Positions 37,837 to 62,502 of a stretch of 64,000 bases of DNA are shown piece by piece. Both the position numbers and the translations under genes were made by a program. Source of the stretch: Lewinella sp. LCG006 (lineage in GTDB: Bacteria > Bacteroidota > Bacteroidia > Chitinophagales > Saprospiraceae); NCBI RefSeq assembly GCF_040784935.1, contig NZ_CP160680.1, positions 3,566,501-3,630,500 on the forward strand, in the 5' to 3' direction. How positions within the stretch are numbered: the stretch's first letter is position 1; each line of letters begins with the position of its first letter. The notes below the pieces were generated by a model, which was given only the letters and a program-made list of their open reading frames with translations, did not search any database and was not told the DNA's origin.

Positions 37837-38805
37837 ATGAAAACACGTCTACTTTCCCTTTTTGTTTTTCTTTTTGTAAGCATGATGATCCAAGCGCAGA
37901 CCAATGTGACGCTCAATATCCATCACAAATTAGGCGATCAAGCTTTTGCGATGCAAACCAGCGTGACCAACAATGTGGGCAGCACTTTTGATTACAGTCG
38001 ACTAGAGTATTACATCGCCGAAATATCGCTGATCCACGATGGCGGCCAGGAAACCATAATCGAAGACCGTTACATGTTAGTAGATGCCACCGAAGAAACC
38101 ACTGAATTGCTGGGTGACCTGCCCATCACAGAAATTGAGGCTATTCGCTTTCACATTGGTGTAGACGAAGCAAAAAATCACCTGGATCCCACGACTTACC
38201 ATAGCTCGCATCCGCTCTCTCCTCAATTTCCTTCGATGCACTGGGGATGGGCATCGGGTTATCGCTTTGGCGCTTTCGAAGGAAAAAGTGGCAGCGCACT
38301 CAATCAGAATTGGGAGATCCATGCCCTCGAAGACGAAAACTACTTTATGACGGAAGTAGCCCTGGATTTGGCCATTATAGACAATGAGCTTACGATTGAT
38401 TTGGATGCCGATTACATTCGTGCCATGGAAAACATCAATCTGAATAGTGGCCCTATCACCCATGGTGGCTACGGTGAGGCAAAGGTGGCTTTGCGCAATT
38501 TTCAAGACTATGTTTTTAGCCCTTCTTCTTTGATCAACAGCAACGAAGAGGCTTTGGCCATCAATGCTTTCAAGGTGTACCCTAATCCTGGTACAACCAA
38601 GGCTGCTCATGTCTTCATTGCTACCGATACCGACGAGGTTTACCAACTGCAGGTAACCAACGCTCAAGGTCAGCTGGTTCGCCAAATGACTCAAGTACGC
38701 AGCAACAACGAAATTGATCTTGGCTTAGAGACAGCCGGACTTTACTTTATCAGCTTGCAGCAAAACGGCAAGGTGGTGATGACAGAGAAGCTGGTGATTC
38801 AGTAA
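37837..38805 (+). CDS. MbnP-like copper-binding protein with T9SS type A sorting domain
   Basis: 322 residues. Signal peptide MKTRLLSLFVFLFVSMMIQAQ. Residues 22-230 match the MbnP family: NVTLNIHHKLGDQAF start, SRLEYYIAEISLI, IRFHIGVDEAKNH and the FPSMHWGWASGYRF block with W136/W138. In the methanotroph system MbnH oxidises a tryptophan of MbnP to kynurenine, creating a copper site; whether that happens here is inference. A type A T9SS domain (KVYPNPGTTKAAHVF) anchors or secretes it. The next two genes are di-heme peroxidases, as in mbnPH pairs. Confidence 0.82.
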   Translation: MKTRLLSLFVFLFVSMMIQAQTNVTLNIHHKLGDQAFAMQTSVTNNVGSTFDYSRLEYYIAEISLIHDGGQETIIEDRYMLVDATEETTELLGDLPITEIEAIRFHIGVDEAKNHLDPTTYHSSHPLSPQFPSMHWGWASGYRFGAFEGKSGSALNQNWEIHALEDENYFMTEVALDLAIIDNELTIDLDADYIRAMENINLNSGPITHGGYGEAKVALRNFQDYVFSPSSLINSNEEALAINAFKVYPNPGTTKAAHVFIATDTDEVYQLQVTNAQGQLVRQMTQVRSNNEIDLGLETAGLYFISLQQNGKVVMTEKLVIQ

Positions 38806-38820
38806 TACGGGTTGTTTTTT

Positions 38821-38897
38821 TGAACCATATGAGGAATATGAGGGATGATAAGTACATCTTTTTACTTGATACGGCCTTGTATTCCTTATATGGTTCC
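38821..38897. repeat. dispersed palindromic repeat, family A, full copy
   Basis: Arms GAACCATATGAGGAATATG (from 38822) and its near-complement ending ATATGGTTC (to 38896) form a 22-bp stem with three mismatches. The inside has ATAAGTA, T5 and TACTTGAT. It lies between the MbnP-like gene and the first peroxidase gene and may end or attenuate transcription there. Confidence 0.75.
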
Positions 38898-38921
38898 ATA
38901 AATGGACATTAGTACTTTGGC

Positions 38922-39959
38922 GTGAGCATCATTTTAACAAAAAAAAATCCTGCGGCCTTATTGGGTTTGTCAGTCATTGTCCTTTTGGTTGCCTGTCAGC
39001 CGGAAGAGGCTGCTCCTTTGCCGCTTTTTCCACTTTTGATGGAGGTACCGGAAGGTTTTCCGGAGATCCCTTATCCTGCTGATAACGCGTTTACCGAAGC
39101 ACGCTGGGCGTTGGGAAAGAAGCTCTTTTTCGACCCGATCATGTCGGCTGAAATGACCATCAGTTGCGCTTCGTGCCACCAGCCAGGATTAGCATTTAGC
39201 GACGATCAAGCGTTCAGTCCTGGAGTAGCCCAGCGGCCAGGGACACGCAACTCACCGAGCTTGGCCAATGTCGCTTACCACCCCTACTATACGCGAGAAG
39301 GAAGTGTGCCAACCTTGGAAATGCAGGTGTTGGTCCCGATTCAGGAGCACAATGAATTTGATTTCAATATTCTTCTGATTGCCGAACGGCTGCGCGCGGA
39401 TAGTACCTACTACCAAATGGCCCTTGATGCTTACCAACGAGAGCCCGACCCTTACGTGATCACCCGCTCGCTGGCTTGTTTTGAGCGCAGCCTGCTCAGT
39501 GGCAACAGCGCTTATGACCAGTACACACGAGGTGACAGTCAACTTTCAGCCACGGTTTTGCGCGGCAAAGCACTCTTCTTTAGTGAGCGTACGCAGTGCA
39601 GCAGTTGTCACGGTGGTTTCAATTTTACCAACTACGCTTTTGCCAACAATGGGCTATATACCGACTACCCTGATCCAGGCCGGTTTCGCTTTACGGGTGA
39701 AGAGGCGGATCGCGCCACCTTCAAGGTGCCCAGTTTGCGCAATGTTGGTCTCACAGCGCCATACATGCACGATGGTTCTTTGACCAGCTTGGAAGCGGTA
39801 GTGGATCATTACAATTCCGGAGGGAAAGATCACCCCAATAAAAGTCCGCTGTTGCAACCGCTATTACTCAGTGAGCAGGAAAAACAAGACTTGGTCGCTT
39901 TCTTGCAAAGCCTGACAGATCCACTTTTTACGGGAAACCCAATTTTTAAAAACGATTAA
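38922..39959 (+). CDS. di-heme cytochrome c peroxidase (MbnH/CcpA/MauG family) lipoprotein
   Basis: 345 residues from a GTG start. Lipobox VLLVACQ. Two haem-c sites, SCASCHQPG and CSSCHGGFN, with the family blocks ARWALGKKLFFDP, RNSPSLANVAY and TFKVPSLRNVGLTAPYMHDG. It contains the N-terminal (high-potential/low-potential) di-heme peroxidase fold used by CcpA, MauG and MbnH. Acting in the periplasm it could reduce peroxide or oxidise a protein Trp. Position after the MbnP-like gene favours the MbnH role. No ATG is available upstream. Confidence 0.85.
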   Translation: MSIILTKKNPAALLGLSVIVLLVACQPEEAAPLPLFPLLMEVPEGFPEIPYPADNAFTEARWALGKKLFFDPIMSAEMTISCASCHQPGLAFSDDQAFSPGVAQRPGTRNSPSLANVAYHPYYTREGSVPTLEMQVLVPIQEHNEFDFNILLIAERLRADSTYYQMALDAYQREPDPYVITRSLACFERSLLSGNSAYDQYTRGDSQLSATVLRGKALFFSERTQCSSCHGGFNFTNYAFANNGLYTDYPDPGRFRFTGEEADRATFKVPSLRNVGLTAPYMHDGSLTSLEAVVDHYNSGGKDHPNKSPLLQPLLLSEQEKQDLVAFLQSLTDPLFTGNPIFKND

Positions 39960-39969
39960 CCCAACCCTT

Positions 39970-41064
39970 ATGTCACTTCGATATCTACTTCTTTTCAGCC
40001 TGTTAACTACCTTGGTACTCGTTGCTTGTGGAGACGATGATGGCCCTGTGGGCGAACTCCCCGTGTACGATGATACGCCCTATGTGTTATTTTATGGTAG
40101 CAACCTCCCCGCACCTCAGTTGCCCGCCGACAACCCATTGACGGAGCAAAAAGTACTTCTCGGGCGGATGCTTTTTCACGAAACGATGCTGAGTAAAGAT
40201 GGTAGCCAGGCTTGTGCTTCCTGTCATTTGCAAACCGATGGCTTTTCAGACCCAAATCGCTTTTCTATAGGTGTAGAAGGCTTACCCGGCAAACGGCAGG
40301 CCATGCCCGTATTCAATATGGCTTGGCATAGCAACCAATTCTTCTGGGACGGAAGAGCGAACCTTCTCCGCGATCAGGCATTGAAACCCATTGAGGATCC
40401 ACTGGAAATGAACGAAACCCTGGAGAATGTGATCGCCAAATTGAGCGATAGCAAAATGTACCGCGACCAATTTGTTCGTGCTTTTGACAGCGAAGAGATC
40501 ACCGAAGAGAAAATGGCCCTTGCGCTGGAGCAGTTCATGCTCAGCATCGTTTCCTACCAGTCGAAATACGATCGCTACCTGGCCGGCGAAGTAGAACTCA
40601 CCGAAAGCGAAGAACGCGGCCGAATCTTGTTTGAAACCGAATACAATCCTTTCTTCCCTGAATTTTCTGGTGCTGATTGTGCGCACTGTCATGGCGGTAA
40701 GAATTTCGAAAACGACCAGTACATGAACAATGGTTTGGATAGCGATGCTGATTTTACCGATCTTGGTCGGGAAATGGTTACTCAAAATGCGGCCGACCGC
40801 GCCAAGTTCAAAGTACCAAGCTTACGCAATGTAGCCATCACTGCGCCTTACATGCACGACGGGCGTTTCCAGACCCTGGAGCAGGTTGTTGATCATTACA
40901 ACCAAGGTATCAGAAATTCTTCGACCGTTGATCCTACCGTGGAAAACACGCGAGAAACAGGCCTGTTCCTTACCCCTCAAGACAAGATGGATCTGGTGAA
41001 TTTTCTCCACACCCTCACGGATGAGGTGATGATGAGTGAGCCTGCTTACCAGTCGCCGTTTTGA
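39970..41064 (+). CDS. second di-heme cytochrome c peroxidase (MbnH/CcpA family) lipoprotein
   Basis: 364 residues; lipobox LVLVACG. Haem sites ACASCHLQTDG and DCAHCHGGKN; also ERGRILFE, FKVPSLRNVAITAPYMHDGR. It is 10 bp after the first peroxidase and closely related to it, probably a duplication that has diverged (the first-haem loop here reads GFSDPNRFSIGVEG). WDGRANLLRDQALKPIEDPL is the family's conserved block after the first haem. One of the pair may be the true partner of the MbnP-like protein and the other an ordinary peroxidase. Confidence 0.85.
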   Translation: MSLRYLLLFSLLTTLVLVACGDDDGPVGELPVYDDTPYVLFYGSNLPAPQLPADNPLTEQKVLLGRMLFHETMLSKDGSQACASCHLQTDGFSDPNRFSIGVEGLPGKRQAMPVFNMAWHSNQFFWDGRANLLRDQALKPIEDPLEMNETLENVIAKLSDSKMYRDQFVRAFDSEEITEEKMALALEQFMLSIVSYQSKYDRYLAGEVELTESEERGRILFETEYNPFFPEFSGADCAHCHGGKNFENDQYMNNGLDSDADFTDLGREMVTQNAADRAKFKVPSLRNVAITAPYMHDGRFQTLEQVVDHYNQGIRNSSTVDPTVENTRETGLFLTPQDKMDLVNFLHTLTDEVMMSEPAYQSPF

Positions 41065-50230: not shown

Positions 50231-50391
50231 GTTGATGGCTACTGTTTGAGGACCATTAAGCCAAGCGACATGCCAAAATATTATTTACCAAATAATCAGT
50301 TTTTTATGTATTTGTTTTTGTTTAACGTGTTTGATAACGGACGGTTGCATGGGCGATTTTGGGAAAATGTTATGCTCGACCAAACAATTTT

Positions 50392-50556
50392 AAAAGTTGG
50401 AAAGGTGTAAGGGTTGGTATAAGGTGTAAGTGTTGGAAAAGTGTAAGGGTGGTGACCATCAACCATCAACCATCAATTTCTCAAGATCGGAAATCAGAAG
50501 AATTGGTTTTTCCCAACTTTTACACCCTTACACTTTTACACCTTTCTAACAATCAT
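50392..50556. repeat. family C composite repeat
   Basis: GTTGGAAAGGTGTAAGGGTT on the left and CCCTTACACTTTTACACC on the right are inverted, around ATCAACCATCAACCATCAA and a GGAAATCAGAAG unit. It occupies most of the 420-bp gap before the hydrolase-OsmC gene; no ORF or promoter stands out in the rest. Confidence 0.7.
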
Positions 50557-50650
50557 CAAACCATCAAACCCCTTATTTATCCGCCAGTCGACAACCCATC
50601 TGTGGTGAGAGTTGTATTTTTGGTATTATTCTGTGCAATACCCTACCATT

Positions 50651-51862
50651 ATGGCCAGTACCAAAGTTTCCTTTACCAATAATACCGGTTACACCTTAGC
50701 AGCGAGTTTGGAGCTCCCCGTGAACCAGCACCCGGTGGCTTTTGCCATTTTTGCGCATTGTTTTACTTGCAGTAAAAACCTCACGGCGGTGCGGAACATC
50801 AGCCGGGCTTTGCATCAGGGGGGGATAGCGGTCTTGCGTTTTGATTTTACTGGACTGGGCGAAAGCGAAGGGGAATTTGCGGACACCAACTTCACCTCCA
50901 ACGTCGCTGATCTGGAGGCTGCTGCTGCTTTTTTGGAAACCCATTATCAGGCACCAGCACTACTTATTGGGCATTCGTTGGGTGGGGCCGCGGTGATTCA
51001 CGTGGCAGATCGGCTACCTTCGGTGAAGGCGGTGGTGACGATTGGCGCACCGCACGATCCCGCTCACGTTAATCATCTTTTTAGCGAAGAAGCTCCAAAA
51101 ATTGTCAAGGAGGGTGAAGCCGAAGTTAGCATCGGCGGCCGCTCCTTTAAGGTGAAGAAGCAGTTTCTGGAAGATATCAAAGCGCACAGCCAGGAAGAAA
51201 AAATCAAGCATCTCAAGCGGGCGCTGTTGATCTTACATTCCCCGCAAGACCTTACCGTTCCTATTGAGAACGCAGCAAAAATATACCTGGAGGCCAAGCA
51301 CCCCAAAAGTTTCGTTACCCTTGATGGTGCCGACCACCTGATGAGTCGCAAGGAGGACTCCCAGTACGCAGGTCAAATCATTGCTACCTGGGTGCAACGC
51401 TATCTGGAGGTTCCGCAAAAGGAAAAACTGGCGAGTGACCGCGATGTCGTCGTGCGACTAGGGCAGGAAGGCTTCACTACCGAAGTCATGGTTCGCCATC
51501 ACAGCCTCTCCGCCGACGAGCCCGCAGAGGTGGGAGGGAATGATTTTGGCCCCACTCCCTACGAGCTGCTTTGCGCCAGCCTGGGAGCTTGCACCGCCAT
51601 GACCATGCAAATGTATGCCCGTCGTAAAAAGTGGGACCTGCAGGAAGTAAAAGTGCACCTCAGTCACCGTAAGGACTACACCGAGGACATGAATAATCCG
51701 GAGCATGGTCAGAGCAAAATTGACTACTTTGATCGCCTCATCGAAATGGAAGGTAACCTGGATGAATCCCAAAAAGCCAAGCTGATGGAAATTGCTGACA
51801 AATGCCCCGTGCACCGAACCTTGCACAGTGATGTGGTGGTGAAGACGGAATTGAAGGGTTGA
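50651..51862 (+). CDS. bifunctional alpha/beta hydrolase-OsmC protein
   Basis: Start placed at 50651 (MASTKVSFTNN) rather than a TTG 39 bp upstream; 403 residues. Residues 1-250 are an alpha/beta hydrolase with nucleophile elbow LIGHSLGGAAVIH, acid near HSPQDLTVP and His in DGADHLMSR. Residues 265-403 are an OsmC/Ohr-like domain with peroxidatic Cys in SLGACTAMTMQMYA and resolving Cys in IADKCPVHRTL. OsmC domains reduce organic hydroperoxides. The fusion is a known bacterial arrangement; the hydrolase substrate is unknown. Cytosolic; monocistronic. Confidence 0.92.
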   Translation: MASTKVSFTNNTGYTLAASLELPVNQHPVAFAIFAHCFTCSKNLTAVRNISRALHQGGIAVLRFDFTGLGESEGEFADTNFTSNVADLEAAAAFLETHYQAPALLIGHSLGGAAVIHVADRLPSVKAVVTIGAPHDPAHVNHLFSEEAPKIVKEGEAEVSIGGRSFKVKKQFLEDIKAHSQEEKIKHLKRALLILHSPQDLTVPIENAAKIYLEAKHPKSFVTLDGADHLMSRKEDSQYAGQIIATWVQRYLEVPQKEKLASDRDVVVRLGQEGFTTEVMVRHHSLSADEPAEVGGNDFGPTPYELLCASLGACTAMTMQMYARRKKWDLQEVKVHLSHRKDYTEDMNNPEHGQSKIDYFDRLIEMEGNLDESQKAKLMEIADKCPVHRTLHSDVVVKTELKG

Positions 51863-52090
51863 AAGTTGATTGTTGAAAGTTGATGGTCAACCAACAACCA
51901 TCAACCATCAACTTTTCAAGGTCGGAAGTCGGAAGTGGGAAGTCGGAAATTTTGAACCTCACTCCGTATCTAAATGGTGTAAAGGTTGGTCCTGTGACCC
52001 TGAAACTATCAACCATCAACCAACAACCAACAACTTTTCAAGGTCAGAAGTCGAAATATTGGTTTTCCCAACTTTTACACTCTTCCAACC
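51863..52090. repeat. family C composite repeat
   Basis: AAGTTGATGGT and ACCATCAACTT inverted units, then GGTCGGAAGTCGGAAGTGGG, a CAACCATCAACCAACAACC block and CCCAACTTTTACACTC. It fills the gap between the convergent hydrolase-OsmC and TonB genes. Confidence 0.7.
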
Positions 52091-52094
52091 ACGC

Positions 52095-52979
52095 TTATTC
52101 CAACTTAAACCTCACCGGCAAATTAAACTGCACCCGTACCGGGCGGCCCTGTTGTTTGCCCGGCGACCATTTCGGGGCACTATCGGCCATCAATTGTACT
52201 ACTCTTTGGGCTTCTTGCCCGAGGGTGGCTCCTGGATCACGAACAATTTCAATCTGGGTGAGAGATCCGTCTTTTTCCACGACAAACCGGATCACGGCAG
52301 TGCCGCTCACGCCGTTTTCTTTAGCGATGGCCGGATAGCGAACGTGCTGGCCAATAAATGCCATGATCGCACGATCGGAGCATTGGCGCTTGCTGGCTTC
52401 GTCTTCCATGCCAGCACAATCCCCAAATACAGGCATCTTTTCGGCGATAATGACGAGATCCGGACCATTATCTACGATGGGCGGAGGTGGGGGGATGTAT
52501 TTAGGTGGGATAGGCCGGGAAATGGTAGAAGGTGCCACGGGCGTATTGCCGCCAATGTCTCCACTCCGGAAAGTGAGGGTGTCAACAATGTTCGGATCAA
52601 CGACAGCCTCAAATTTTGGAGGTGGCGGCGGCGGTGGTGGGGGAGGAGGATGGTTAGTGATCGGCGGGGCATTGTCGATTTCATCATCCCAATATTCCCC
52701 TGCGCCAATAATATTGGGGCTGGGAGCCGTAAACTGGGTCCAGTTGAACGCCAAAAAAGTAAAGGCGAGGGAGCAGACCAAGCCCAAGCGCAGAAAAACA
52801 GGTTGGTAGCGGAATACATCCACAGAGGGGTATTTGGTACGGGAACCTGCGGTAGCTTTTTTAGAAGAACCAGGATGTCGGAATAATCGTCGACCTAGCA
52901 AAACCAAACCCAAGAGCAGGAGTAGGATCATACCCGTCCCAAGCAGTACCTCGGTACCACTGAAGTTTAAATTCAGCAT
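52095..52979 (-). CDS. TonB-family energy transducer
   Basis: 294 residues. Membrane segments at about 10-30 (LLGTGMILLLLLGLVLLG) and 62-80 (LGLVCSLAFTFLAFN). A proline stretch of 11 residues (PPPPPPPPPP) followed by a linker and a C-terminal TonB domain with YPAIAKENGVSGTAVIRFVV and GKQQGRPVRVQFNLPVRF. It transmits inner-membrane proton force to outer-membrane receptors. The two-helix N-terminus is like BlaR/MecR1-type TonB fusions but short. No receptor or ExbBD gene is adjacent. Confidence 0.88.
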   Translation of the reverse strand: MLNLNFSGTEVLLGTGMILLLLLGLVLLGRRLFRHPGSSKKATAGSRTKYPSVDVFRYQPVFLRLGLVCSLAFTFLAFNWTQFTAPSPNIIGAGEYWDDEIDNAPPITNHPPPPPPPPPPPKFEAVVDPNIVDTLTFRSGDIGGNTPVAPSTISRPIPPKYIPPPPPIVDNGPDLVIIAEKMPVFGDCAGMEDEASKRQCSDRAIMAFIGQHVRYPAIAKENGVSGTAVIRFVVEKDGSLTQIEIVRDPGATLGQEAQRVVQLMADSAPKWSPGKQQGRPVRVQFNLPVRFKLE

Positions 52980-53570: not shown

Positions 53571-54164
53571 ATGCCTTACCCATTATTCAAATTATTCAAT
53601 GCTAGTAGGACCGAAATACGACGCCGATTTTCGGTTTTTTGGAAGAAGGAATTATCCATGCAGACAAGTGATTCCGTAAGGGAATGCCCACAGGAAATGG
53701 CTGGAGTAGATCCTGCCCAAAAGACCTGTTCGTGTCATCTTGCTGCTGTTCCCGAAAAAGCAACGACAGCGCCTTTATTGAATGTCAAGCATTCAGCGCG
53801 GTCAGTGCCTTCCTTGATCCTCAGTGTTTTGGTTGCCTTTTTTCCCAAATGCCCGATGTGTTGGGCTGCATACATGAGTATGTTTGGCAGCGTCAGTCTG
53901 GCACAAACACCTTATCAAAGTTGGCTCTTTCCTGTTTTACTCGGATTTCTGGGTTTACACCTGTTTTTGGTATTTCGAAAAGTACCAGAAAAAGGTTACG
54001 GTCCATTCTTGCTTAGCGTTGCAGGAGTCGTAGTTATTTTAGTAAGTCGGCGCTTGTTGTTACCTGGCAATACTTTACTGATTATAGGAATGCTTTGCAT
54101 TCTAACGGGCTCTCTGTGGAACAGTTTTTCTTTCCATCGTAGGGAAACATCTTTTACTCAATAA
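53571..54164 (+). CDS. four-helix membrane protein with KCPMCW motif (MerC-like)
   Basis: 197 residues (an internal ATG at 53658 is a possible start). After a Cys-rich soluble segment (CPQEMAGVD, KTCSCHLA) come four hydrophobic segments: LILSVLVAFFPKCPMCWAAY, WLFPVLLGFLGLHLFLVF, FLLSVAGVVVILVS and LLIIGMLCILTGSLW. FFPKCPMCWAAYMSMFG resembles MerC-type metal uptake proteins, with paired Cys in the first helix. It may import or bind copper for the tyrosinases. It precedes the first tyrosinase by 23 bp, so it is probably the first gene of the cluster. Confidence 0.65.
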   Translation: MPYPLFKLFNASRTEIRRRFSVFWKKELSMQTSDSVRECPQEMAGVDPAQKTCSCHLAAVPEKATTAPLLNVKHSARSVPSLILSVLVAFFPKCPMCWAAYMSMFGSVSLAQTPYQSWLFPVLLGFLGLHLFLVFRKVPEKGYGPFLLSVAGVVVILVSRRLLLPGNTLLIIGMLCILTGSLWNSFSFHRRETSFTQ

Positions 54165-54187
54165 ATATTCAAAAACATCCAATCATT

Positions 54188-55768
54188 ATGAAAAAGAAAA
54201 GATTGCGCATCCGCTATTCTGTTCGCCAGTTACAGGAAATGTATGAAAACAATAACAAGGCACCCCTTGAAAAATTGATGAAAGCATGGGCTGGAATCAA
54301 AGCTTTACCCCCTGATGATCCCAATTCGTTTTTTGTGATTGGAGGGTATCATGGAGAGCCCTTCGTAGGGGCTGGCTGGGGCAATGCATCTTACTGGGGT
54401 GGTTACTGCAATCACGGCAATGTTCTGTTTCCCACATGGCATCGTGTTTATATGATGAAACTTGAGGAAGCGCTACAAAGTATAGAAGGTTGTGAAGATG
54501 TGATGATGGCCTACTGGGATGAAACCAGTGAAGCGTCTATCAAGGAAGGCATTCCCTGGGCCTTAACCGATGAGTTTTTCCCTCGGGATAGTAAGACACC
54601 CAATCCATTGAGGTCTTTTGTGTTTCCTACCAATATTACTGATAATATCAATGGCGATAATCCAAATTACAGTAAGCCTGCCGGTTATGAAACGGTACGC
54701 TATCCATTGTCGGGTTTGGTAGGTACAGAAGCGGACAGGGCTGCTACGCAATGCCATAATGCCAATTTCCCAAACTACAAGGAGAATGTTAAGACCTTGA
54801 ATGATAATGTCGTAGCCTGGCTTAATACTTTCATTACGGTAAATGGGCAAAAGTTTCCTACAGATGTTAAGCACAAGTATGAAGCATGTTTGTATGCTCC
54901 CAACTATACGGTGTTTTCAAATACAACCTCAGCCGCAGAATGGAACTCAAAGTTGTCATCAACAGGAGACAAAGGCAATGTCGTTGTTCCGCTAGAGTCG
55001 CCACACAACAGTATTCATCTTGCGGTGGGGGGATACGATGCCCCTGGTTATGATCGTTCGCCCATTCCGGGAGCCAACGGCGATATGGGGGAAAACGATA
55101 CGGCAGGGCTCGACCCCATCTTCTTCTTTCACCATTGTAATGTAGACCGCATGTTTTGGGTTTGGCAGAAGCTTAACGGCCATACCAACGAGCTTGATAT
55201 TATCAAATATTATCCAGGAACTAATTCCGTCGATAGCCAGGGGCCAACACCGGGTACCACGCCCAATTCATGGCTGACGATGGACTCTCCACTTGATCCC
55301 TTTACGCTTAAGGAAAATGGAAAAGAACGCCCTTATACTTCGCGGGATTGCATCAATATTGAGCAGCAACTAGGGTTTACCTACAGCCCTGGTTCATTGG
55401 ATGATGGCAAACTAAAAAAACGCAATTCAACACCGAGGAAGGCCTCTAAGATTGTAGAAATTACGAATATCAATCGGGCGGCCCTCAATGGTTCTTTTGT
55501 CGTCACGGCAGTCGCTAATATTGACGGTAAAAAACAGGTGATCGGCCACGAAGCGGTCTTGAGCCGTTGGAGCGTAAAGAATTGTGCGAATTGCCAAACC
55601 CACCTTGAAGTTAAAGCTCATTTCGAATTGCCGGAGGTGGTCAAGCCGATGATTATGCTGAGTAATGCCAGTATTGCAGAAGAGGATCGCCATACCGCCG
55701 GGGTGGAGTTGATGACGAGAAGACAAACGAACAATCGACCGCAGCGCATTAGCGTGAGTGTAAAGTAA
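54188..55768 (+). CDS. type-3 copper tyrosinase-family protein
   Basis: 526 residues with no signal peptide, so apparently cytosolic unless co-exported. CuA ligands: H55 (GGYHGEP), H76 (YCNHGN) and H85 (FPTWHRVY), the last two with the standard 8-residue spacing. CuB: H273 and H277 (SPHNSIH) and H315 or H316 (FFFHHCNVDRMFW). The CuB block DPIFFFHHCNVDR is classic. The 130-residue C-terminal beta region carries NCANCQTH. It should oxidise phenols to o-quinones or couple aromatic residues. Substrate unknown; second family member at 60108. Confidence 0.88.
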   Translation: MKKKRLRIRYSVRQLQEMYENNNKAPLEKLMKAWAGIKALPPDDPNSFFVIGGYHGEPFVGAGWGNASYWGGYCNHGNVLFPTWHRVYMMKLEEALQSIEGCEDVMMAYWDETSEASIKEGIPWALTDEFFPRDSKTPNPLRSFVFPTNITDNINGDNPNYSKPAGYETVRYPLSGLVGTEADRAATQCHNANFPNYKENVKTLNDNVVAWLNTFITVNGQKFPTDVKHKYEACLYAPNYTVFSNTTSAAEWNSKLSSTGDKGNVVVPLESPHNSIHLAVGGYDAPGYDRSPIPGANGDMGENDTAGLDPIFFFHHCNVDRMFWVWQKLNGHTNELDIIKYYPGTNSVDSQGPTPGTTPNSWLTMDSPLDPFTLKENGKERPYTSRDCINIEQQLGFTYSPGSLDDGKLKKRNSTPRKASKIVEITNINRAALNGSFVVTAVANIDGKKQVIGHEAVLSRWSVKNCANCQTHLEVKAHFELPEVVKPMIMLSNASIAEEDRHTAGVELMTRRQTNNRPQRISVSVK

Positions 55769-55776
55769 CATGAGGA

Positions 55777-55809
55777 GCCCTCGGTAGATTATACCTGCCT
55801 ACCGAGGGC
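55777..55809 (+). terminator. strong hairpin inside the tyrosinase cluster
   Basis: GCCCTCGGTAG (55777-55787) and CTACCGAGGGC (55799-55809) pair perfectly with an 11-nt loop, starting 8 bp after the first tyrosinase stop; the following TTGTTGG is only mildly T-rich. It may partly terminate or protect the upstream transcript. Confidence 0.6.
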
Positions 55810-55906
55810 CTTGTTGGCTAACTTTTAATAATAGACTTGTTTGGTATTACCTAATTACCCGTTGCAGACCATAGTGGTCGTGCCAAACAAGGCTTAAACC
55901 CATATT

Positions 55907-56353
55907 ATGAAAAATATCAATAACGACGTCCTGAGCGGAATTTGGACGTACCGCAGTTGGAACAACGATCCCAACCTCAATACCGCGCTCAGTGATCTCC
56001 TTTTCGGAGAAGGTTTTATCCAGATCAATCATGGGCCAATGAATGAATTTCATGGCATCATCTTCGGCACCGACGACAATAAGCCAGGTGGCACTAAAAC
56101 CTGGCAGCTCAAATTAACGGGCTCTACCAATTATGGTAACCCTTTTACCGTGCGCTTCCAGGGTAAAGGTGTTGTTGGAGGCGATGAATGGATTTATGAC
56201 TACGTGGGGTACCTTACCTTACCCTGGCCCAATGGCGTAGATCAAAAAGCAGCACTCACGGGCTCCATCGTGCGTGTTATCCCTCATCCCGGAGGCGATG
56301 GTGGCCTTCATCCCGCAGGGGTGACTGCTTCCTGGTACGCGGTAAAGAATTAA
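55907..56353 (+). CDS. hypothetical beta-rich protein of the tyrosinase cluster
   Basis: 148 residues, no signal peptide. Not recognised. The pattern of Trp/Gly strands (GIWTYRSWNN, FGEGFIQINHG, TKTWQLKLTGSTNYG, GGDEWIYDYVGYLTLPW) suggests a small beta-barrel, possibly lipocalin- or avidin-like. It lies 98 bp after the cluster hairpin and 40 bp before a haem lipoprotein. Aromatic residues are numerous, so it could bind a phenolic ligand or be a tyrosinase substrate; both are guesses. Confidence 0.6.
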   Translation: MKNINNDVLSGIWTYRSWNNDPNLNTALSDLLFGEGFIQINHGPMNEFHGIIFGTDDNKPGGTKTWQLKLTGSTNYGNPFTVRFQGKGVVGGDEWIYDYVGYLTLPWPNGVDQKAALTGSIVRVIPHPGGDGGLHPAGVTASWYAVKN

Positions 56354-56393
56354 AATCAACCTATTTACACCTCCATCATTCAAAAAAAAAATC

Positions 56394-57941
56394 ATGACAA
56401 AGCGTAATAGCATTTCAATAAGCTACTTCCTCAGAACCTCTTCGCTGAGTTTATTCGTCTTTCTAACTTTAAGCTTCGTACTAACGGCTTGCGGGGATAA
56501 AGACAAAAACAATACCGGGGAAGACGAGATTATGACAGAAGTAGCCACCGATAATCCTTATCAGGTTAATTTTAATCCCTTCCCGCCCTTGGATTTGGCA
56601 GCGGACGCAAGCCCAACGGATCTGGTGAATTTTGCCTGGGAAGAATTTATCGCCCTGACCTGGAAATCTTCTTATGCGACCAATAACCGGAGAGATTATC
56701 CGGATACTACCTGGAGTTGGACCAGCGACAGCAGCCCATATCCAGACTTAGTGGTCTGGGAGACCTATGCCCACCGTACAGAATTACGGCCTTATGACGG
56801 TAATATGCAGCCATTTGACAATCCGCCGCACTACAGTTTCGGCGACCAGCTTACTCCGGCCACTCCGAGTACCAGCTTTACCTTGTTTAATAACCTGGAT
56901 GAGAACAATGAGATTGGCTCCTGTGATCTGTACGCCCATGTGGATAAATACGGCAAAGAAGACATGGTACTTTACCAGGCTAAATGCAATCGGGATGAGT
57001 ATGAGTACATTCTGAACAACTATAATACGAATGACAAACTGAAAAGTGCTACGAGTTTAACATTGAGTAATATCAAAAGTGACAGTACTTATTACAAGGG
57101 GGCTACCAGTACATGCAACTGCCCGCCTAGTGAAGGGGTTATCTGCCTGCCTTGTGGTGGTTCTACAAATGCGGCTACCGGTAAACCCTACACCGGGGCG
57201 ATGGAAATAAAAACGGCTTGGAGGGTATTAGTAGCGGAGGACGATGCTGCTCAATTTTTTACCCGGAATGTTATCTATTACGAAAAAGGCCCTAACGGAG
57301 AAACTCTCTATAAGAACAAGACCTTCGGTTTGATAGGAATCCATATTATCCATAAGACAACGAATTACCCGGATTTTATCTTTGCAACCTGGGAGCACGT
57401 TGGGGTACAGGATGATGATATGGGGTATACAGAAATAGAAAATGATGGATCAGTAGGCCCCATCGTGAGCAATTTTCCGCGGATCAATGGTCCAATTCCT
57501 GATTTGGTGAACGAAAGTACAAGTGCTGTACACGATCAGATGGCGGCACTTAACCCCAATTCCATTTGGCTTAACTATCGACTGGTAGGTGTACAGGGGC
57601 ACCCGACCAATGACTCTACTTCTTTTAGCTATTTCCTGGCCAACTATGTAATCGAGTCAGATAGTACCCTGGCTGATTTCAGGGGTAGTGGTATCGGAAA
57701 ACCTCACGATGGCGGAGTCAATCTCCTTTCTGATAAAGCTTTCTTTACAATGGGGGGCTGTAAAGGCTGCCACGGGGTCGCGCAGATTACTTTAGGAACA
57801 GACTTCTCTTTCCTTTTAGATCAGGCTGGTAAACCCGTAAAAGAACCTGACTTGATTGATACAGTCCCAAGTCTAAGCCTTACTGCTGGCGAAATTTCTA
57901 AGTTGCAACTTTATATAAACGAAACGCAAAAACAGCAGTAG
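56394..57941 (+). CDS. mono-haem c lipoprotein of the tyrosinase cluster
   Basis: 515 residues. Lipobox FVLTACG at about residue 33. Most of the protein shows no family I recognise (FAWEEFIALTWKSSYATNNR, LVVWETYAHRTELRPYDGN). Two Cys-rich patches, CNCPPSEG and CLPCGGS, and near the C-terminus one haem-c site GGCKGCHGVAQ. It is probably an outer-membrane or periplasmic electron-transfer or oxidase protein. The stop is 1 bp before the DJ-1-like gene, showing tight coupling. Redox partner role with the cupredoxin and tyrosinases is inferred. Confidence 0.7.
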   Translation: MTKRNSISISYFLRTSSLSLFVFLTLSFVLTACGDKDKNNTGEDEIMTEVATDNPYQVNFNPFPPLDLAADASPTDLVNFAWEEFIALTWKSSYATNNRRDYPDTTWSWTSDSSPYPDLVVWETYAHRTELRPYDGNMQPFDNPPHYSFGDQLTPATPSTSFTLFNNLDENNEIGSCDLYAHVDKYGKEDMVLYQAKCNRDEYEYILNNYNTNDKLKSATSLTLSNIKSDSTYYKGATSTCNCPPSEGVICLPCGGSTNAATGKPYTGAMEIKTAWRVLVAEDDAAQFFTRNVIYYEKGPNGETLYKNKTFGLIGIHIIHKTTNYPDFIFATWEHVGVQDDDMGYTEIENDGSVGPIVSNFPRINGPIPDLVNESTSAVHDQMAALNPNSIWLNYRLVGVQGHPTNDSTSFSYFLANYVIESDSTLADFRGSGIGKPHDGGVNLLSDKAFFTMGGCKGCHGVAQITLGTDFSFLLDQAGKPVKEPDLIDTVPSLSLTAGEISKLQLYINETQKQQ

Positions 57942-57942
57942 C

Positions 57943-58713
57943 ATGAAAAATAGCGCAGTAATTAACATTGGTGTACCCATCTACGAAGCCGTCGATTCTT
58001 TAGATACCATGGGAGCTTTTCAGGTATTCTATTTGTTGGATGGTGGAACAAACATAAGGCCCTTCCTCATCACTGAAGACGGAGCACCCATTACCAGCCT
58101 TGAAGGCGTGACGATAACACCAAAGTATTCCTTTGCAAATTGCCCACCTTTGGATGTGATTTTTGTTCCGGGAGCTGCAGGTTATCCAAATGGCTTTCCG
58201 GATAGCGGGACAAAGAAGAAGGACAAGAAGATGATGGATATGCCTTCCCTTGTTCATCCTGGACAGCCTTACTTGAATTTTTTAGCCGAAAAAGCTAAAC
58301 ATGCCAGCTGGATAACTGGGGTCTGCACCGGTACTATTTTACTTGCCGCCACAGGTTTGCTGGATGGCCGAAGGGCTACTACACATTGGGCGTTTAAAAA
58401 TTCCTTGGCATTATTCCCCCATGTAACAGTTGCTGATGGATATCCTCGTTATGTTATTGATGGCAATGTGATCACTGGTGGTGGAATCTCTTCCACCATT
58501 GATTGTGGCTTAGCCATTGGTACATTGATTGCAGGAGCACAGGCGGCAAAGAATGCCCAACTGATCATGCAGTACGCACCCAATCCGCCTTATCAGGTAG
58601 GTAACCCTGATTTGGCTGACATCCCTACGATGGCAACGGTGAGTGTCAATATGAAGACCACGATCGATAAGACGGCTCAAACGGTAGCTTCATTTTTAGA
58701 TCAAGCACAATAA
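57943..58713 (+). CDS. DJ-1/PfpI-family protein, isonitrile hydratase-like
   Basis: 256 residues, cytosolic. The nucleophile elbow GVCTGTILLAATGLLDGRRA and the following TTHWAF, GNVITGGGISSTIDCGL and QYAPNPPY match Pseudomonas InhA, where an Asp, Cys and Thr hydrate isocyanides to N-formamides. Asp in SLDTMGAFQVF, the Cys in VCTG and the adjoining Thr are all present. An insertion (SGTKKKDKKMMD) is unusual. DJ-1 members also act as chaperones or amidotransferase-like enzymes, so the isonitrile role is possible, not proven. It abuts the next gene (TAA-ATG). Confidence 0.75.
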   Translation: MKNSAVINIGVPIYEAVDSLDTMGAFQVFYLLDGGTNIRPFLITEDGAPITSLEGVTITPKYSFANCPPLDVIFVPGAAGYPNGFPDSGTKKKDKKMMDMPSLVHPGQPYLNFLAEKAKHASWITGVCTGTILLAATGLLDGRRATTHWAFKNSLALFPHVTVADGYPRYVIDGNVITGGGISSTIDCGLAIGTLIAGAQAAKNAQLIMQYAPNPPYQVGNPDLADIPTMATVSVNMKTTIDKTAQTVASFLDQAQ

Positions 58714-59631
58714 ATGAAGCTATTAAAAGTGCCATGCTGCTGCCTGTGTTTCCTGTTAATTTTTACATGGGCACATGGGCAGCAGCAACATTTGATCATA
58801 GGACGGACCACCGGAGAACTTTTACTCAAAGTTGAAAAGATTCGGGTGTTTGGGTTTACCAATACCCTTTCAGGGCAAGTCACGCTGCCGGGGACAAGCA
58901 TTGAGGTGATGACTGGAGATAGCGTTCTGATTGATTTTTGGAACATCTCTCAAGGCAATCCCCACGTCATTTTTATGGACAGTATTCCCTTGGTGAGAAC
59001 AACCAGTGATGGCGTATTAGCCGAAGAGAAAGCAGTGTACCACATGGACCACGGTTATTATCATTTTACCGCACCTGCACCGGGAACTTACCTCTATTAT
59101 TGTTCGGAAAACTTTCCCTTTAATTTACGAGCAGGCATGTTTGGGGTGATGATTGTCCGGCCGAAAGCAGCACCACAGGAGGAAGGGCAGGAGTTTTTGT
59201 GGTGTAGCTTCGAAATGGATCCCGTTTGGCAGGAATTGGCCCTTTTGGAAGCCGAAAATACCCCGCAACCTAACGAACGGCCCATTTACCAACCTCAGCA
59301 TTTTCTCCTTAACGGAAAGCCTTTTAAGGAAACGGAACCATTAGCGTTGAGTGAAGGAAAAAGCAAGGAACCCATTTTGATTCGCCTGGTAAATGCAGGG
59401 CACTGGCAACAGGAAATTAGTTTCCCTAAAGGCCTTAGGCTTCAGCTCCTGGGCGAGAGGAAAACCTTGCTTAAAACCAAGCATCAACAACAGCTGGTTT
59501 TAGCTCCGAGAGAAACGTGCGAATTGCTACTTGAGCTTCCCCCTGTCAAGAAAAAACGCCGAATAAAGTATATCTTCCGAGACCCTGAGACGGGACGAAT
59601 GAAACACCGAGCTTTTCTGGCAATTTATTAA
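58714..59631 (+). CDS. cupredoxin-like (multicopper-oxidase-type) secreted protein
   Basis: 305 residues, signal peptide VPCCCLCFLLIFTWAHGQ. Residues 30-150 form a plastocyanin/MCO type-3-like domain: IRVFGFTNTLSGQVTLPGTS, HVIFMDSIPL and TYLYYCSENFPFNLRAGMFG. The Cys and Met of a type-1 copper site and the first His (NPHVIF) are visible, but the second His expected between Cys and Met is missing. A second beta domain without obvious ligands follows. It could be an atypical copper electron carrier for the cluster. The start ATG follows directly the preceding stop. Confidence 0.65.
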   Translation: MKLLKVPCCCLCFLLIFTWAHGQQQHLIIGRTTGELLLKVEKIRVFGFTNTLSGQVTLPGTSIEVMTGDSVLIDFWNISQGNPHVIFMDSIPLVRTTSDGVLAEEKAVYHMDHGYYHFTAPAPGTYLYYCSENFPFNLRAGMFGVMIVRPKAAPQEEGQEFLWCSFEMDPVWQELALLEAENTPQPNERPIYQPQHFLLNGKPFKETEPLALSEGKSKEPILIRLVNAGHWQQEISFPKGLRLQLLGERKTLLKTKHQQQLVLAPRETCELLLELPPVKKKRRIKYIFRDPETGRMKHRAFLAIY

Positions 59632-59642
59632 AACCCATTTCT

Positions 59643-60071
59643 ATGAAAGCTTTTTTTCTGACCCTCTTTTTATTTAACTGTTCCTGCTGGCTGATGGCTC
59701 AATCACCTGCTACTTTTATGGTAGTAGGAGAGGACACCAACCGGGAAATCGTCGCCAAAGGAGGGCGACTGGATATCTCAAAAATCAAAGTAGAGAATAT
59801 CACTAAAAACACCATCTATCTCGCCTGGGAAACGGTCTACAACTCTTTCCCCAAAGCCTGGGATTGCTCCATGTGTCAGCACGGAGATTGCCAAATAGGG
59901 ATTCCTAAAGGATCCGAGTTCAAAGCGCTGCGTGCGGATCAACAAGGTTTCATCGCTATCCACGTCATGCCCGGCAACTATTCGGGCGAAGGGGTGGTAA
60001 AGTTTAAAATCTATGACAAGGAGCACCCCGATTTTTATGAGACCCTCACTTTTGAGGTCGAAGTAAAATAA
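59643..60071 (+). CDS. small secreted hypothetical protein of the tyrosinase cluster
   Basis: 142 residues with a signal peptide (FLTLFLFNCSCWLMAQ). A single beta-sandwich-like domain; WDCSMCQHGDCQIGIP carries three Cys and one His that may bind copper. No known family. It lies 11 bp after the cupredoxin gene and 36 bp before the second tyrosinase gene. A caddie- or chaperone-like role for the tyrosinase, as in Streptomyces MelC1, is conceivable but there is no detectable similarity. Confidence 0.6.
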   Translation: MKAFFLTLFLFNCSCWLMAQSPATFMVVGEDTNREIVAKGGRLDISKIKVENITKNTIYLAWETVYNSFPKAWDCSMCQHGDCQIGIPKGSEFKALRADQQGFIAIHVMPGNYSGEGVVKFKIYDKEHPDFYETLTFEVEVK

Positions 60072-60107
60072 CAACAACCCATTATTCACGCTTATTAAAT
60101 TTTCAAC

Positions 60108-61616
60108 ATGAGAACCAACCTATTAAAAAAAGGAGCAGGTTTACTCGCGATTTTATTGGTCGCGATTGCTGCTTTTGGTCAAAGCCCAAGACTTCAAACC
60201 GCTACAAAATCAGCATTGTATGTCCGAAAAAATGCGGCTTCTCTGGAAGCCAAAGAAGACTTGGAGGCCATGGCCAGGGCCTTTAAAATTATGCGAGCGA
60301 TGACTTGCGAGGATAGCCGCTCCTGGTATTACCAGGGAGCTATTCACAATATTCCTCACGAAATTATTGGTGCTAATAAAATTTGCGCCATGTACGAAAC
60401 GGATAAGGAGAAATTATTCGCCTGGGGTGATTGTACCCACACCAAGACGGAAGCATCAAGCCTGCACTTCTTGCTTTGGCACCGAATGTATACCTGGCAT
60501 TTGGAACAGATCGTTCGCGAGCTTTCCGGGAAAGCCGATTTTGCCATGCCTTACTGGAATTATGGTAGCGAGGTGCTTTCCGATAATCAGCTGCCTGCTA
60601 TTTTTACGGATACGAAAGGTTCGTTGTTCGCGAGTGCAAGATACAGCCTACTCAATAATGGAAAACCCATTGATGACACCACCAGAATGGACCTCAAGGA
60701 AGAGCTTGATCGTTTGGCCATAACCCACGGATTTGCGGGCAAGGAGGGTTTTAGTCAGCAATTGGAGGCGGCTCCTCATGGGCTCATGCACGATTACATT
60801 GGGGCCGATGGAAAAGAAACCTTTTTCAATCCTATTTTCCAAAAAGAAATGTCGGGCCTGATGGCCAACGTCCCTTCAGCAGGTTTTGATCCCGTCTTCT
60901 GGTTGCATCACAGTATGGTTGATCGTATCTGGACACAATGGGATCAATCAGCTTATGGCGAAAGGCCTACCTTGAAGCATCTCAAAGTACAACCCTGGGA
61001 GTATAACTTTATTCAACCCAACGGCAATGAAGTGACCTACACGCTTGACGAAGTATACGCCATTGTGTTCAATCCAGACTATGTCTACGACGATATGCAA
61101 GCCCCGGTATTAGCTGCTGTACCAAATGATCAGATGTCTGATATGTCAAGAGGTATGCTGGGGCAAGACCCTCCCAAAGAAAGGGTCATCTGGAAACAGC
61201 AAGTAGATAAGGTGATTACGGATCAGCAAGTGATTGGACAACCGAAAGCACTACTTCAGCAAGCTCGTAATTTCACCAAGTCGGAAAGAAGTCTGGAAAC
61301 AAAACCACTGCTACTGAGACTAGATGTTTCCGTTTATAAAGAAATAGGCGACTATTATAAGGTATACATCCATTACCCAAGCGGTAAAAAAGCGGATCAA
61401 TACATTGGTATGATGACCTTCTTCGGCGTCAGTCACGTACATGATCTCGGGGAGCTTCATTCTTTTGAAGAAGAAGGTGCTGACCTTAGTTTTACCTACC
61501 GTGTTCCTGGCAGCTTGCTGGCGGATGGAGAGCCTTTTGAAGTCAAATTCATAAAGCGAGGTCAGGGTGCTGGAAGTGTAACACTGGAATCTATTACCTT
61601 GTCTGCTCAGGAATAG
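60108..61616 (+). CDS. secreted type-3 copper tyrosinase-family protein
   Basis: 502 residues with signal peptide (GLLAILLVAIAAFGQ). CuA: H80 (GAIHNIP), H111 or H120 (CTHTKTEASSLHFLLWHR) and H125; the CuA central region departs from the usual H-x8-H spacing. CuB: H224, H228 (APHGLMH) and H267/H268 (FWLHHSMVDRIW). The C-terminal region (FTKSERSLETKPLLLRLDVS onwards) resembles the tail domain of plant-type polyphenol oxidases. It should act in the periplasm or outside on phenols. Last gene of the cluster, ended by a strong terminator. Paralogue of the tyrosinase at 54188 but distantly related. Confidence 0.87.
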   Translation: MRTNLLKKGAGLLAILLVAIAAFGQSPRLQTATKSALYVRKNAASLEAKEDLEAMARAFKIMRAMTCEDSRSWYYQGAIHNIPHEIIGANKICAMYETDKEKLFAWGDCTHTKTEASSLHFLLWHRMYTWHLEQIVRELSGKADFAMPYWNYGSEVLSDNQLPAIFTDTKGSLFASARYSLLNNGKPIDDTTRMDLKEELDRLAITHGFAGKEGFSQQLEAAPHGLMHDYIGADGKETFFNPIFQKEMSGLMANVPSAGFDPVFWLHHSMVDRIWTQWDQSAYGERPTLKHLKVQPWEYNFIQPNGNEVTYTLDEVYAIVFNPDYVYDDMQAPVLAAVPNDQMSDMSRGMLGQDPPKERVIWKQQVDKVITDQQVIGQPKALLQQARNFTKSERSLETKPLLLRLDVSVYKEIGDYYKVYIHYPSGKKADQYIGMMTFFGVSHVHDLGELHSFEEEGADLSFTYRVPGSLLADGEPFEVKFIKRGQGAGSVTLESITLSAQE

Positions 61617-61701: not shown

Positions 61702-62502
61702 TTACTGCAATAAACTCTTGATGCGCATATATTCTCCGCGGTTGTCACTGGTGCCCCGGCAGCCTAGTTCCTTGGCTTTGGCGTCGATATCCGCTACTCG
61801 GTTGCCCGGGTTGGGGTGAGTAGATAAAAATTCTGGTGGGCGAGCAGCACTGGATTCCTCCATCTTACGGAAAAAACCGGCCGCACCGTTGGCATTGTAG
61901 CTCGTGCCGCACAGGTAAATTACCGAGTATTCATCGGCTTCACTTTCGTGAGAACGGCTGTTTTTCAAGCTGGCCAGTCCCAAGGCAATTTGCTCAATCA
62001 TCCCTGGTTCAGAGTTGCCGGTAACGACACTGGCCAGGATTTGCAAGCCATAAATTTTGGTCATCTGCTGGGTACTATGGCGCTGGGCTGCGTGGGCAAT
62101 CTCGTGGCCCATCACTCCTGCCAGCTCGTCTTCTGAATCAAGAAACTTGATTAACCCGGTGTAGACATAAATATATCCACCAGGTGTCGCGAAGGCATTA
62201 AGGGTTTCTGGATCATCAATGATTTTCACTTCCCAGGCAAAGTCGTCTTTGTGCGCCACTTTGCCAGTACTCAGGAGGCGGTTGGTAATATTTCTAATGT
62301 ATTGGTAGACTTCCCGGTTACTTTGTTCTGGAAGAATAGGAAACTCCGAAGGGTTACTGTTGATTTCCTGGCTTACTTGCCTGCCCAACTCAATATCCTG
62401 TTCTACCGAAAAGAAGTTGAGGCCGCCACCGCTACCGCCACAGCCGATAGCAATCAAAGAACTCATCATCGTGCCAATAATGGCTAAACTGAAATATCGC
62501 AT
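61702..62502 (-). CDS. M48-family metallopeptidase lipoprotein
   Basis: 266 residues. Lipobox IAIGCGG (Cys21). Zinc site MGHEIAHAAQRHS (HExxH) with the third ligand Glu in HESEADEY and the LSTHPNPGNRVAD motif near the C-terminus, as in BepA/Oma1-like periplasmic M48 peptidases. It probably degrades misassembled outer-membrane proteins. The start ATG at 62502 lies 282 bp before the divergent OmpH gene. Confidence 0.92.
   Translation of the reverse strand: MRYFSLAIIGTMMSSLIAIGCGGSGGGLNFFSVEQDIELGRQVSQEINSNPSEFPILPEQSNREVYQYIRNITNRLLSTGKVAHKDDFAWEVKIIDDPETLNAFATPGGYIYVYTGLIKFLDSEDELAGVMGHEIAHAAQRHSTQQMTKIYGLQILASVVTGNSEPGMIEQIALGLASLKNSRSHESEADEYSVIYLCGTSYNANGAAGFFRKMEESSAARPPEFLSTHPNPGNRVADIDAKAKELGCRGTSDNRGEYMRIKSLLQ

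Follow-up and report, generated by a model that had tools for sequence, protein, structure and literature searches.

Among the described systems, the group ID lodA operons come closest to the locus discussed here. According to the accessible part of the source, all but one of 11 such operons contain, between lodA and lodB, a gene for a protein of 138-142 amino acids without a conserved domain, genes for a tyrosinase and a multicopper oxidase are also present, and one of the 11 genomes is that of a Bacteroidete (PMC4417212). The function of the small protein was given in the same part of the paper as unknown (Campillo-Brocal et al. 2015; PMC4417212). The locus itself is a cluster of eight genes at positions 53571-61616 of a stretch of 64,000 nucleotides from Lewinella sp. 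LCG006, referred to below as the window. It encodes two tyrosinases, TyrA and TyrB, and a protein of 148 amino acids, b148, which by position, size and context is the small gene of the group ID operons, matched to the gene in the accessible part of the paper by description. A first-pass annotation of the window had stated that no system with this content was described, a statement that these operons correct. Further literature on tyrosinase/LodA operons, beyond PMC4417212 and a 2010 review, was not found in a search that left subscription journals mostly outside its coverage, and later work may exist.

The cluster is tentatively read as an accessory operon for phenol oxidation, a LodA-free relative of the group ID operons in which b148 would handle the quinone product and haem c would take up the electrons. 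Several aspects of b148 are new. It does not need LodA nearby, as none is seen in 16 of 22 loci, and it accompanies tyrosinases of several subfamilies, which are 18-65% identical to TyrA. Furthermore, a set of its W, Y, R, and H positions shows no variation beside tyrosinase, and in four Bacteroidota loci it occurs together with a haem-c lipoprotein from a family that has no name.

The tyrosinase-b148 pair

TyrA (54188..55768, + strand) and TyrB (60108..61616, + strand) both match the Pfam family Tyrosinase, PF00264 (E 2e-43 and 6e-31, respectively). In an alignment of 12 tyrosinases, both contain all six copper-binding histidines and the CxH motif, and from their sequences both look functional. 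By eye, as for all signal peptides and the lipobox mentioned here, TyrA has no signal peptide and TyrB has a signal-like leader. TyrA matches the tyrosinase BtTYR of Burkholderia thailandensis (PDB 5ZRD) over residues 7-483 with an E value of 2.3e-172, and is a near homologue of this enzyme rather than the distant tyrosinase that it was first taken for. It is also 63-65% identical to a tyrosinase of Burkholderia pyrrocinia, which itself adjoins a b148. TyrA and TyrB belong to separate subfamilies and did not arise by duplication inside the operon. The best relative of TyrB in 110 genomes is 39% identical (in G054), and the 17 kb around it showed no match to the other cluster proteins.

The b148 gene (55907..56353, + strand) was chosen as a tracer because it is rare. 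Matches were found in 3 of 148 relatives and in 4 of 316 genomes of the phylum, the window genome being counted in both, and in 4 of 337 genomes of an alphaproteobacterial class. A b148 profile gave no match in 321 genomes of one gammaproteobacterial class in a search without a positive control, and no match in viral contigs was confirmed. Among 72,556 plasmid records, 107 contain b148, i.e., 105 rhizobial ones and two from Burkholderia; the many rhizobial plasmids include p42d of Rhizobium etli, the symbiotic plasmid.

The 22 b148 loci that were read comprise the window, nine further genomes (G025, G033, G226, G379, G429, G472, G624, G655, and G682), and 12 of the 107 plasmid records. In 14 of them, a tyrosinase gene is located within about 5 kb of b148. 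The set outside the plasmid records consists of the window, G033, G226, G429, G472, where the two genes are divergent, and G624, while the plasmids (L026, L048, L027, L029, and L064-L067) are from two Burkholderia pyrrocinia, R. ruizarguesonis, S. meliloti, S. fredii, Mesorhizobium AR10, Rhizobium Kim5, and R. leguminosarum A1. Three other loci, two of R. phaseoli and one of R. etli CFN42, show no tyrosinase match but contain a multicopper oxidase gene, complete or partial, and one, of M. huakuii, has a partial LodA and LodB among insertion sequences. A multicopper oxidase, full or partial, is present in eight of the 22 loci, the two-domain relative in the window being excluded from this count. 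LodA is present in six loci, and the window is among those that show none. In G033, G226, G429, G624, R. ruizarguesonis, and M. huakuii (lodA partial), b148 lies between lodA and lodB, and the b148 of the window is 47-64% identical to copies in that position. The copies on Sinorhizobium plasmids are near-identical and therefore represent few independent events; among the Sinorhizobium matches listed, the tyrosinase gene is, by coordinates, 66-67 bp from b148 in 13 of 16, the remaining three accessions being outside the best 60 of 64 tyrosinase records. Both records in the plasmid collection with a TyrA-type match also carry b148.

In the 14 tyrosinase-linked copies of b148, the residues W10, Y12, R13, W83, Y85, Y87, W95, R111, and H115 (profile numbering) are invariant, and the b148 of the window is intact and keeps every one of these positions. 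With one invariant His and no invariant Cys, the family does not resemble a copper carrier and would rather seem to have a binding or catalytic pocket. Searches of the PDB with b148 yielded matches at chance level only. Unlinked stretches, three in G025 and one each in G682 and G655, keep the invariant residues where these are covered, except for W95 and H115 in G655; of the G025 stretches compared, one has 19 residues and another lacks a start, and a weak match in G379 was left out. At the G025 locus (L047:5821-8289), b148 is present in tandem, with the parts separated by a stop codon, and a gene for a CxxCH lipoprotein comes next; the contig shows no tyrosinase match. Relatedness of this lipoprotein to the haem-c lipoprotein of the window is unsupported, as only 13 residues around the haem motif align.

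The pair of b148 and TyrA was compared with 11 other pairs. Identities of b148 and tyrosinase, in that order, are 67 and 23% for G033, 62 and 23% for both G226 and G429, 49 and 23% for G624, 57 and 24% for R. ruizarguesonis, 47 and 22% for S. meliloti, 46 and 21% for S. fredii, 46 and 18% for AR10, 41 and 22% for Kim5, 61 and 65% for Burkholderia, and 41 and 53% for G472. Thus, b148 is the more conserved protein relative to nine of the 11 partners; the notion that it is always better conserved than the oxidase was dropped, since the order is reversed in the other two. These identities and their correlations across 12 pairs, given below, indicate a common history of b148 and tyrosinase within a subfamily, yet combination of b148 with very different tyrosinases.

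The haem-c lipoprotein and the other cluster genes

The fourth gene encodes hemeLP (P0004; 56394..57941, + strand), which had been annotated as a haem-c lipoprotein and indeed has one CxxCH motif and a lipobox, LTAC. The CxxCH motif is invariant in 11 of 11 aligned members. No NCBIfam match over the cut-off, no PHROG match and no PDB match at E 1 was found for hemeLP, and its profile gave chance-level PDB matches apart from a stretch of cytochrome c555 (E 0.02). In G226 and G429, the gene order is Tyr-LodA-b148-LodB-hemeLP on one strand, and the profile finds these two copies, both of which are outside the profile, at E 5e-89 and 1.5e-92, respectively. In G033, hemeLP is divergent from a Tyr-LodA-b148-LodB-CPxC membrane protein cluster. 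Hence, tyrosinase, b148 and hemeLP occur together in four Bacteroidota loci (window, G033, G226, and G429), representing three genera and two families, and Paracoccus denitrificans has a tyrosinase with a hemeLP relative.

In total, 29 hemeLP loci were read (window, L008-L021, L053, L054, and L112-L123), with three of the 19 places of one listing left out. Other neighbors in these loci are a family of proteins of 577-701 amino acids in seven, DUF1842 in two, and a GMC oxidoreductase and an FAD amine oxidase in one each. Specificity of hemeLP for a tyrosinase-b148 system was therefore rejected; it is a broad family with many other contexts, most plausibly a haem-c protein that is reused and often lies in oxidase clusters. 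The 577-701-amino-acid family, which pairs with hemeLP at L011, L014, L016, L020, L114, L115, and L116, has hosts in Bacteroidota, Alteromonadaceae, and Paracoccus; one member is beside the FAD amine oxidase and one beside a tyrosinase, and the two members scanned had no Pfam match. In two genomes that share a genus (L119:5575-5988 and L120:8879-9292), the gene immediately upstream of hemeLP encodes the small DUF1842 protein; this protein was considered as a relative of b148, but no relatedness was detectable.

The first gene (53571..54164, + strand, with a possible internal start near 53658) encodes a membrane protein with the motif FPKCPxCWAAYM, which is 43% identical over 98 amino acids to its counterpart in the tyrosinase/LodA cluster of G033. 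No Pfam, NCBIfam or PHROG match and none in plasmids was found for this CPxC membrane protein, and its earlier designation as MerC-like has no support from Pfam or NCBIfam. It may be a membrane protein for metals or thiols, encoded next to a tyrosinase.

P0005 (57943..58713, + strand; no signal peptide) matches DJ-1_PfpI (E 3e-16) and aligns with the isonitrile hydratase InhA (PDB 3NON) over 223 residues with an E value of 5.5e-36, so that the original choice between a DJ-1-like and an isonitrile-hydratase-like protein can be narrowed to the latter. It keeps the equivalents of Asp17, Cys101, and Thr102 of InhA, and ahead of the region with the catalytic Cys it is longer than InhA by a net 26 residues. 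By analogy, P0005 might reasonably protect copper enzymes from isonitriles, the class of compounds to which rhabduscin belongs. In InhA, Cys101 is the nucleophile and Asp17 the acid/base; isocyanides often bind copper, and isonitrile hydratase likely defends against them (PMC10971408, accessible part). According to the part of the source that is accessible, the rhabduscin cluster of Xenorhabdus yields products that inhibit the phenoloxidase of an insect (PMC6386379). Within the literature covered by a full-text search, no paper mentions both tyrosinase and isonitrile hydratase. The DJ-1 protein encoded in the R. ruizarguesonis cluster shares 36% identity with P0005. Its candidacy as an isonitrile hydratase is weakened by the change of VCTG to VCEG, with Glu in place of the Thr that follows the Cys in InhA. 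An in-frame stop upstream of the annotated start of this DJ-1/PfpI gene (L027, near 8504-9130) suggests that the copy may be shortened.

The next gene (58714..59631, + strand) encodes a cupredoxin-like protein with a signal-like leader and a match to Cu-oxidase_3 (E 5e-8). It resembles two-domain laccases, but its copper sites are incomplete, as had been noticed before: in an alignment to 3G5W, the HxH and HCH motifs are replaced. Because of the lost ligands, the protein is unlikely to be an oxidase, and the role of electron carrier once proposed for it is weakened as well. The 142-amino-acid protein (59643..60071, + strand; signal-like leader) has weak relatives in 29 of the 110 genomes searched, its own included, and is therefore not special to the cluster.

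As first described, all eight genes of the cluster, each an intact open reading frame (ORF), are on the + strand. The gaps from stop to start are, in order, 23, 138, 40, 1, 0, 11, and 36 bp; thus, the largest separates tyrA from b148, and the spacing of 0-40 bp reported for the last five genes holds. From this spacing, a single transcript may be assumed; promoter- or terminator-like sites in the cluster were not more numerous than in shuffled sequences. No Pfam family at E 0.1 was found for the membrane protein, b148, hemeLP, and the 142-amino-acid protein, and no match in PHROGs for four of the cluster proteins or in PADLOC for all eight. The cluster is flanked upstream by a TonB-like gene, assigned by eye (52095-52979, - strand), and downstream by an M48 peptidase gene (61702-62502, - strand). 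The genome, G000, is a single contig of 7.5 Mb.

The first-pass annotation had proposed to recognize a system by the company of at least five of the eight genes across genera. In the genomes searched, the maximum was four of the eight families, i.e., tyrosinase, b148, haem lipoprotein, and CPxC membrane protein in G033, which belongs to another genus of the same family. Three of the eight recur in a single genus from another family of the same class (G226 and G429), and two recur in Betaproteobacteria (Burkholderia) and in Alphaproteobacteria, where some loci have a multicopper oxidase in addition and one has a DJ-1 gene. Separate occurrence of the genes, named earlier as an argument against a system, was thus found in the second operon half, whereas it does not apply to the tyrosinase-b148 core. 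Three congeners (G001-G003) were searched for b148, hemeLP, the 142-amino-acid protein, and TyrB. No match was found for b148, the 142-amino-acid protein or TyrB. For hemeLP there was a single, weak match, in G002, which corresponds, at 90% identity, to a distant paralogue encoded in the window genome. What follows the TonB-like gene in G002 is not the cluster but an ORF of which 915 codons are present before the contig ends; other genes follow M48 in G003, and the contigs of G001 and G002 end 0.5-0.6 kb beyond M48. Therefore, the cluster is accessory, either gained here or lost there.

Elsewhere in the window, about 12 kb upstream of the cluster, positions 37837-41064 (+ strand) encode a member of the MbnP family with a T9SS tail, a domain in keeping with Bacteroidota, and then two di-haem cytochromes of the CCP_MauG type; we take this group to resemble a copper-linked MbnP/MbnH-like cassette. 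Translation of the intergenic DNA at 50359-52886 gives INHQP-like repeated peptides in several ORFs, which suggests short intergenic repeats.

Possible roles of b148

In the tentative reading of the cluster as a phenol-oxidation operon, TyrA, and TyrB outside the cytosol, would oxidize a phenol or catechol with O2 to an o-quinone, whilst the CPxC membrane protein may help in copper supply. The product of the phenol oxidase would be bound and then converted or carried by b148 in a pocket formed by aromatic residues, Arg, and His, the haem lipoprotein would accept electrons at the membrane, and P0005 would remove copper-binding isonitriles that could poison the copper enzymes. Product handling by b148 would explain why its partners are tyrosinases of several subfamilies and sometimes only a multicopper oxidase. 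The early idea of copper-dependent phenol oxidation with a haem-c partner is plausible; the electron-carrying cupredoxin is its weaker part. A more far-reaching version, which we consider doubtful, holds that b148 represents a new quinone-handling family of isomerases, cyclases or carriers and the constant part of a module that occurs across phyla and is partly spread by plasmids. Interchangeable parts would be the oxidase (tyrosinase of several subfamilies or multicopper oxidase, with or without LodA) and, for the uptake of electrons, either the haem lipoprotein or a multicopper oxidase, and the isonitrile hydratase would protect the copper enzymes.

Several observations weigh against the reading as a phenol-oxidation operon. 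Four of the 22 b148 loci (G025, G379, G655, and G682) have no tyrosinase, multicopper oxidase or LodA; those of G379 and G655 are only partly visible (contigs of 9.4 and 8.6 kb, respectively), and the G379 match is weak and located inside a 762-amino-acid protein. No b148 is present in six tyrosinase loci read (L011, L020, L086, L087, L088, and L089), so that it is not a general companion of tyrosinases. In both TyrA-type partners, Burkholderia and G472, b148 is less conserved than the tyrosinase, and the identities of the two proteins show a Mantel correlation of 0.63 (p 0.0002, 12 pairs). Because of these two partners and the six b148-free loci, confidence in product handling and in its more far-reaching version was lowered slightly, and that in the chaperone role considered below was raised slightly. 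As to hemeLP, a tyrosinase is near only six of its 29 loci (window, G033, G226, G429, P. denitrificans, and, at about 6 kb, G032) and b148 near four, the G226 protein is 22% identical to P0004, and PF00264 is absent from four of the five genomes behind loci L013-L017. None of the other loci read combines the isonitrile hydratase, cupredoxin, 142-amino-acid protein, and TyrB. The predicted structures, with pLDDT 35 for hemeLP with five relatives and 49 for b148, are too poor to use, and a Foldseek search with the b148 model gave mixed barrels, none below E 0.08, which were left unused.

The main rival is that b148 is a caddie-like maturation chaperone, which, as Streptomyces MelC1, would bind apo-tyrosinase and insert copper or plug the active site by a conserved tyrosine; the cluster would then be an ordinary two-tyrosinase operon with a helper. 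The vicinity of a tyrosinase in 14 of 22 loci fits this explanation, as does the joint divergence within the TyrA type (61/65% for Burkholderia and 41/53% for G472). Similarly, the Mantel correlation leaves room for a co-evolving chaperone, although the rank correlation is 0.20 (p 0.11; the pairs of the 12 sequences are not independent). Since b148 lacks a signal peptide and the S. meliloti tyrosinase has a twin-arginine-like leader, folding before export is plausible. However, no Pfam family at E 0.1, MelC1 included, was found for b148, whilst the MelC1 family is in Pfam. Furthermore, one invariant His without an invariant Cys would make a poor copper carrier, b148 is also found beside tyrosinases that are 18-25% identical to TyrA, and b148 is accompanied by a multicopper oxidase alone in three loci and by neither oxidase in G025. 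In the accessible parts of two studies, Tyr98 of the caddie is itself oxidized by tyrosinase (PMC6312201), which is in favor of a caddie, and six bacterial tyrosinases were expressed in E. coli (PMC8466947), BtTYR not being confirmed among the six, which counts against one. Taken together, a chaperone role appears rather doubtful.

Alternatively, the cluster could be a decayed or recombined group ID LodA operon, in which b148 once served a LodA quinoprotein and was left over beside unrelated copper genes. The position of b148 between lodA and lodB in several loci, the presence of such a gene in group ID operons according to the accessible text (PMC4417212), and the accessory character of the cluster, with four proteins searched in three congeners without a close match, are consistent with decay. 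It is nevertheless unlikely, as the b148 of the window is intact with all invariant positions kept, and LodA-free tyrosinase-b148 pairs are found, in the stretches read, in Burkholderia, where the tyrosinase is of the type found in the window, Sinorhizobium, Mesorhizobium, Rhizobium, and G472. An ordinary melanin or phenol detoxification operon, formed by loose clustering of redox genes and without a dedicated link between b148 and tyrosinase, is improbable too: the many other contexts of hemeLP and the 142-amino-acid protein, the lack of conservation of the second operon half, and the six b148-free tyrosinase loci speak for it, but b148 is rare and yet linked to tyrosinase in 14 of 22 loci over Bacteroidota, Alpha- and Betaproteobacteria. 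Finally, b148 might itself be the substrate: the phenol oxidase would convert one of its invariant Tyr or Trp residues into a protein-bound quinone, and b148, as a small redox protein, would then connect the oxidase, LodA, and either haem c or a multicopper oxidase. The invariance of Y12, W83, Y85, Y87, and W95 in the 14 linked copies and, in the accessible part of the source, the ability of tyrosinase to oxidize a tyrosine of a partner protein (PMC6312201) would agree with this. We regard it as very unlikely, because b148 copies that have no oxidase in their vicinity also retain most of this pattern, as would be the case for a fold or pocket.

The occurrence of b148 without LodA beside varied phenol oxidases moves the question of its function to tyrosinase chemistry, where it can be tested with two purified proteins. 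Proteins that steer the products are known from animal melanin synthesis; if b148 steers the fate of o-quinones, it would be a bacterial counterpart of these proteins and useful for the production of catechols or melanin.

Comparison with known systems

Like the window, the ppoB operon of Marinomonas mediterranea combines a tyrosinase (PpoB1) with a membrane protein that may have a role in metal handling (PpoB2). On two Rhizobium plasmids, the b148-tyrosinase pair is followed by a gene annotated as DUF2182, which we take to be COG5486, and this gene is therefore another candidate for copper supply there. No relatedness was detectable between the membrane protein of the window and the DUF2182-annotated protein encoded at a rhizobial b148 locus (E 0.72). 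PpoB2 is a COG5486 protein that transfers copper to tyrosinase, according to the accessible part of the source (PMC2855505). In the Streptomyces melC operon, a small protein is likewise encoded beside a tyrosinase, i.e., the caddie MelC1 and MelC2. However, b148 has no Pfam match, and its partners are tyrosinases of several subfamilies and sometimes only a multicopper oxidase.

The group ID lodA operons share with the window the small gene and a tyrosinase, and the group is spread over several classes. No LodA match and no match to the LodB-like protein of G033 was found among the ORFs of the window. The window genome has two LodA-family genes far off (G000:C1:911412 and G000:C1:4854617), each followed by a LodB-like gene, and its LodA_N matches are more than 1 Mb from the cluster. 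Of the group ID multicopper oxidase gene, the window has only the two-domain relative without copper ligands. Conversely, compared with the group ID operons, the window adds a haem lipoprotein, a second tyrosinase, and an isonitrile-hydratase-like gene.

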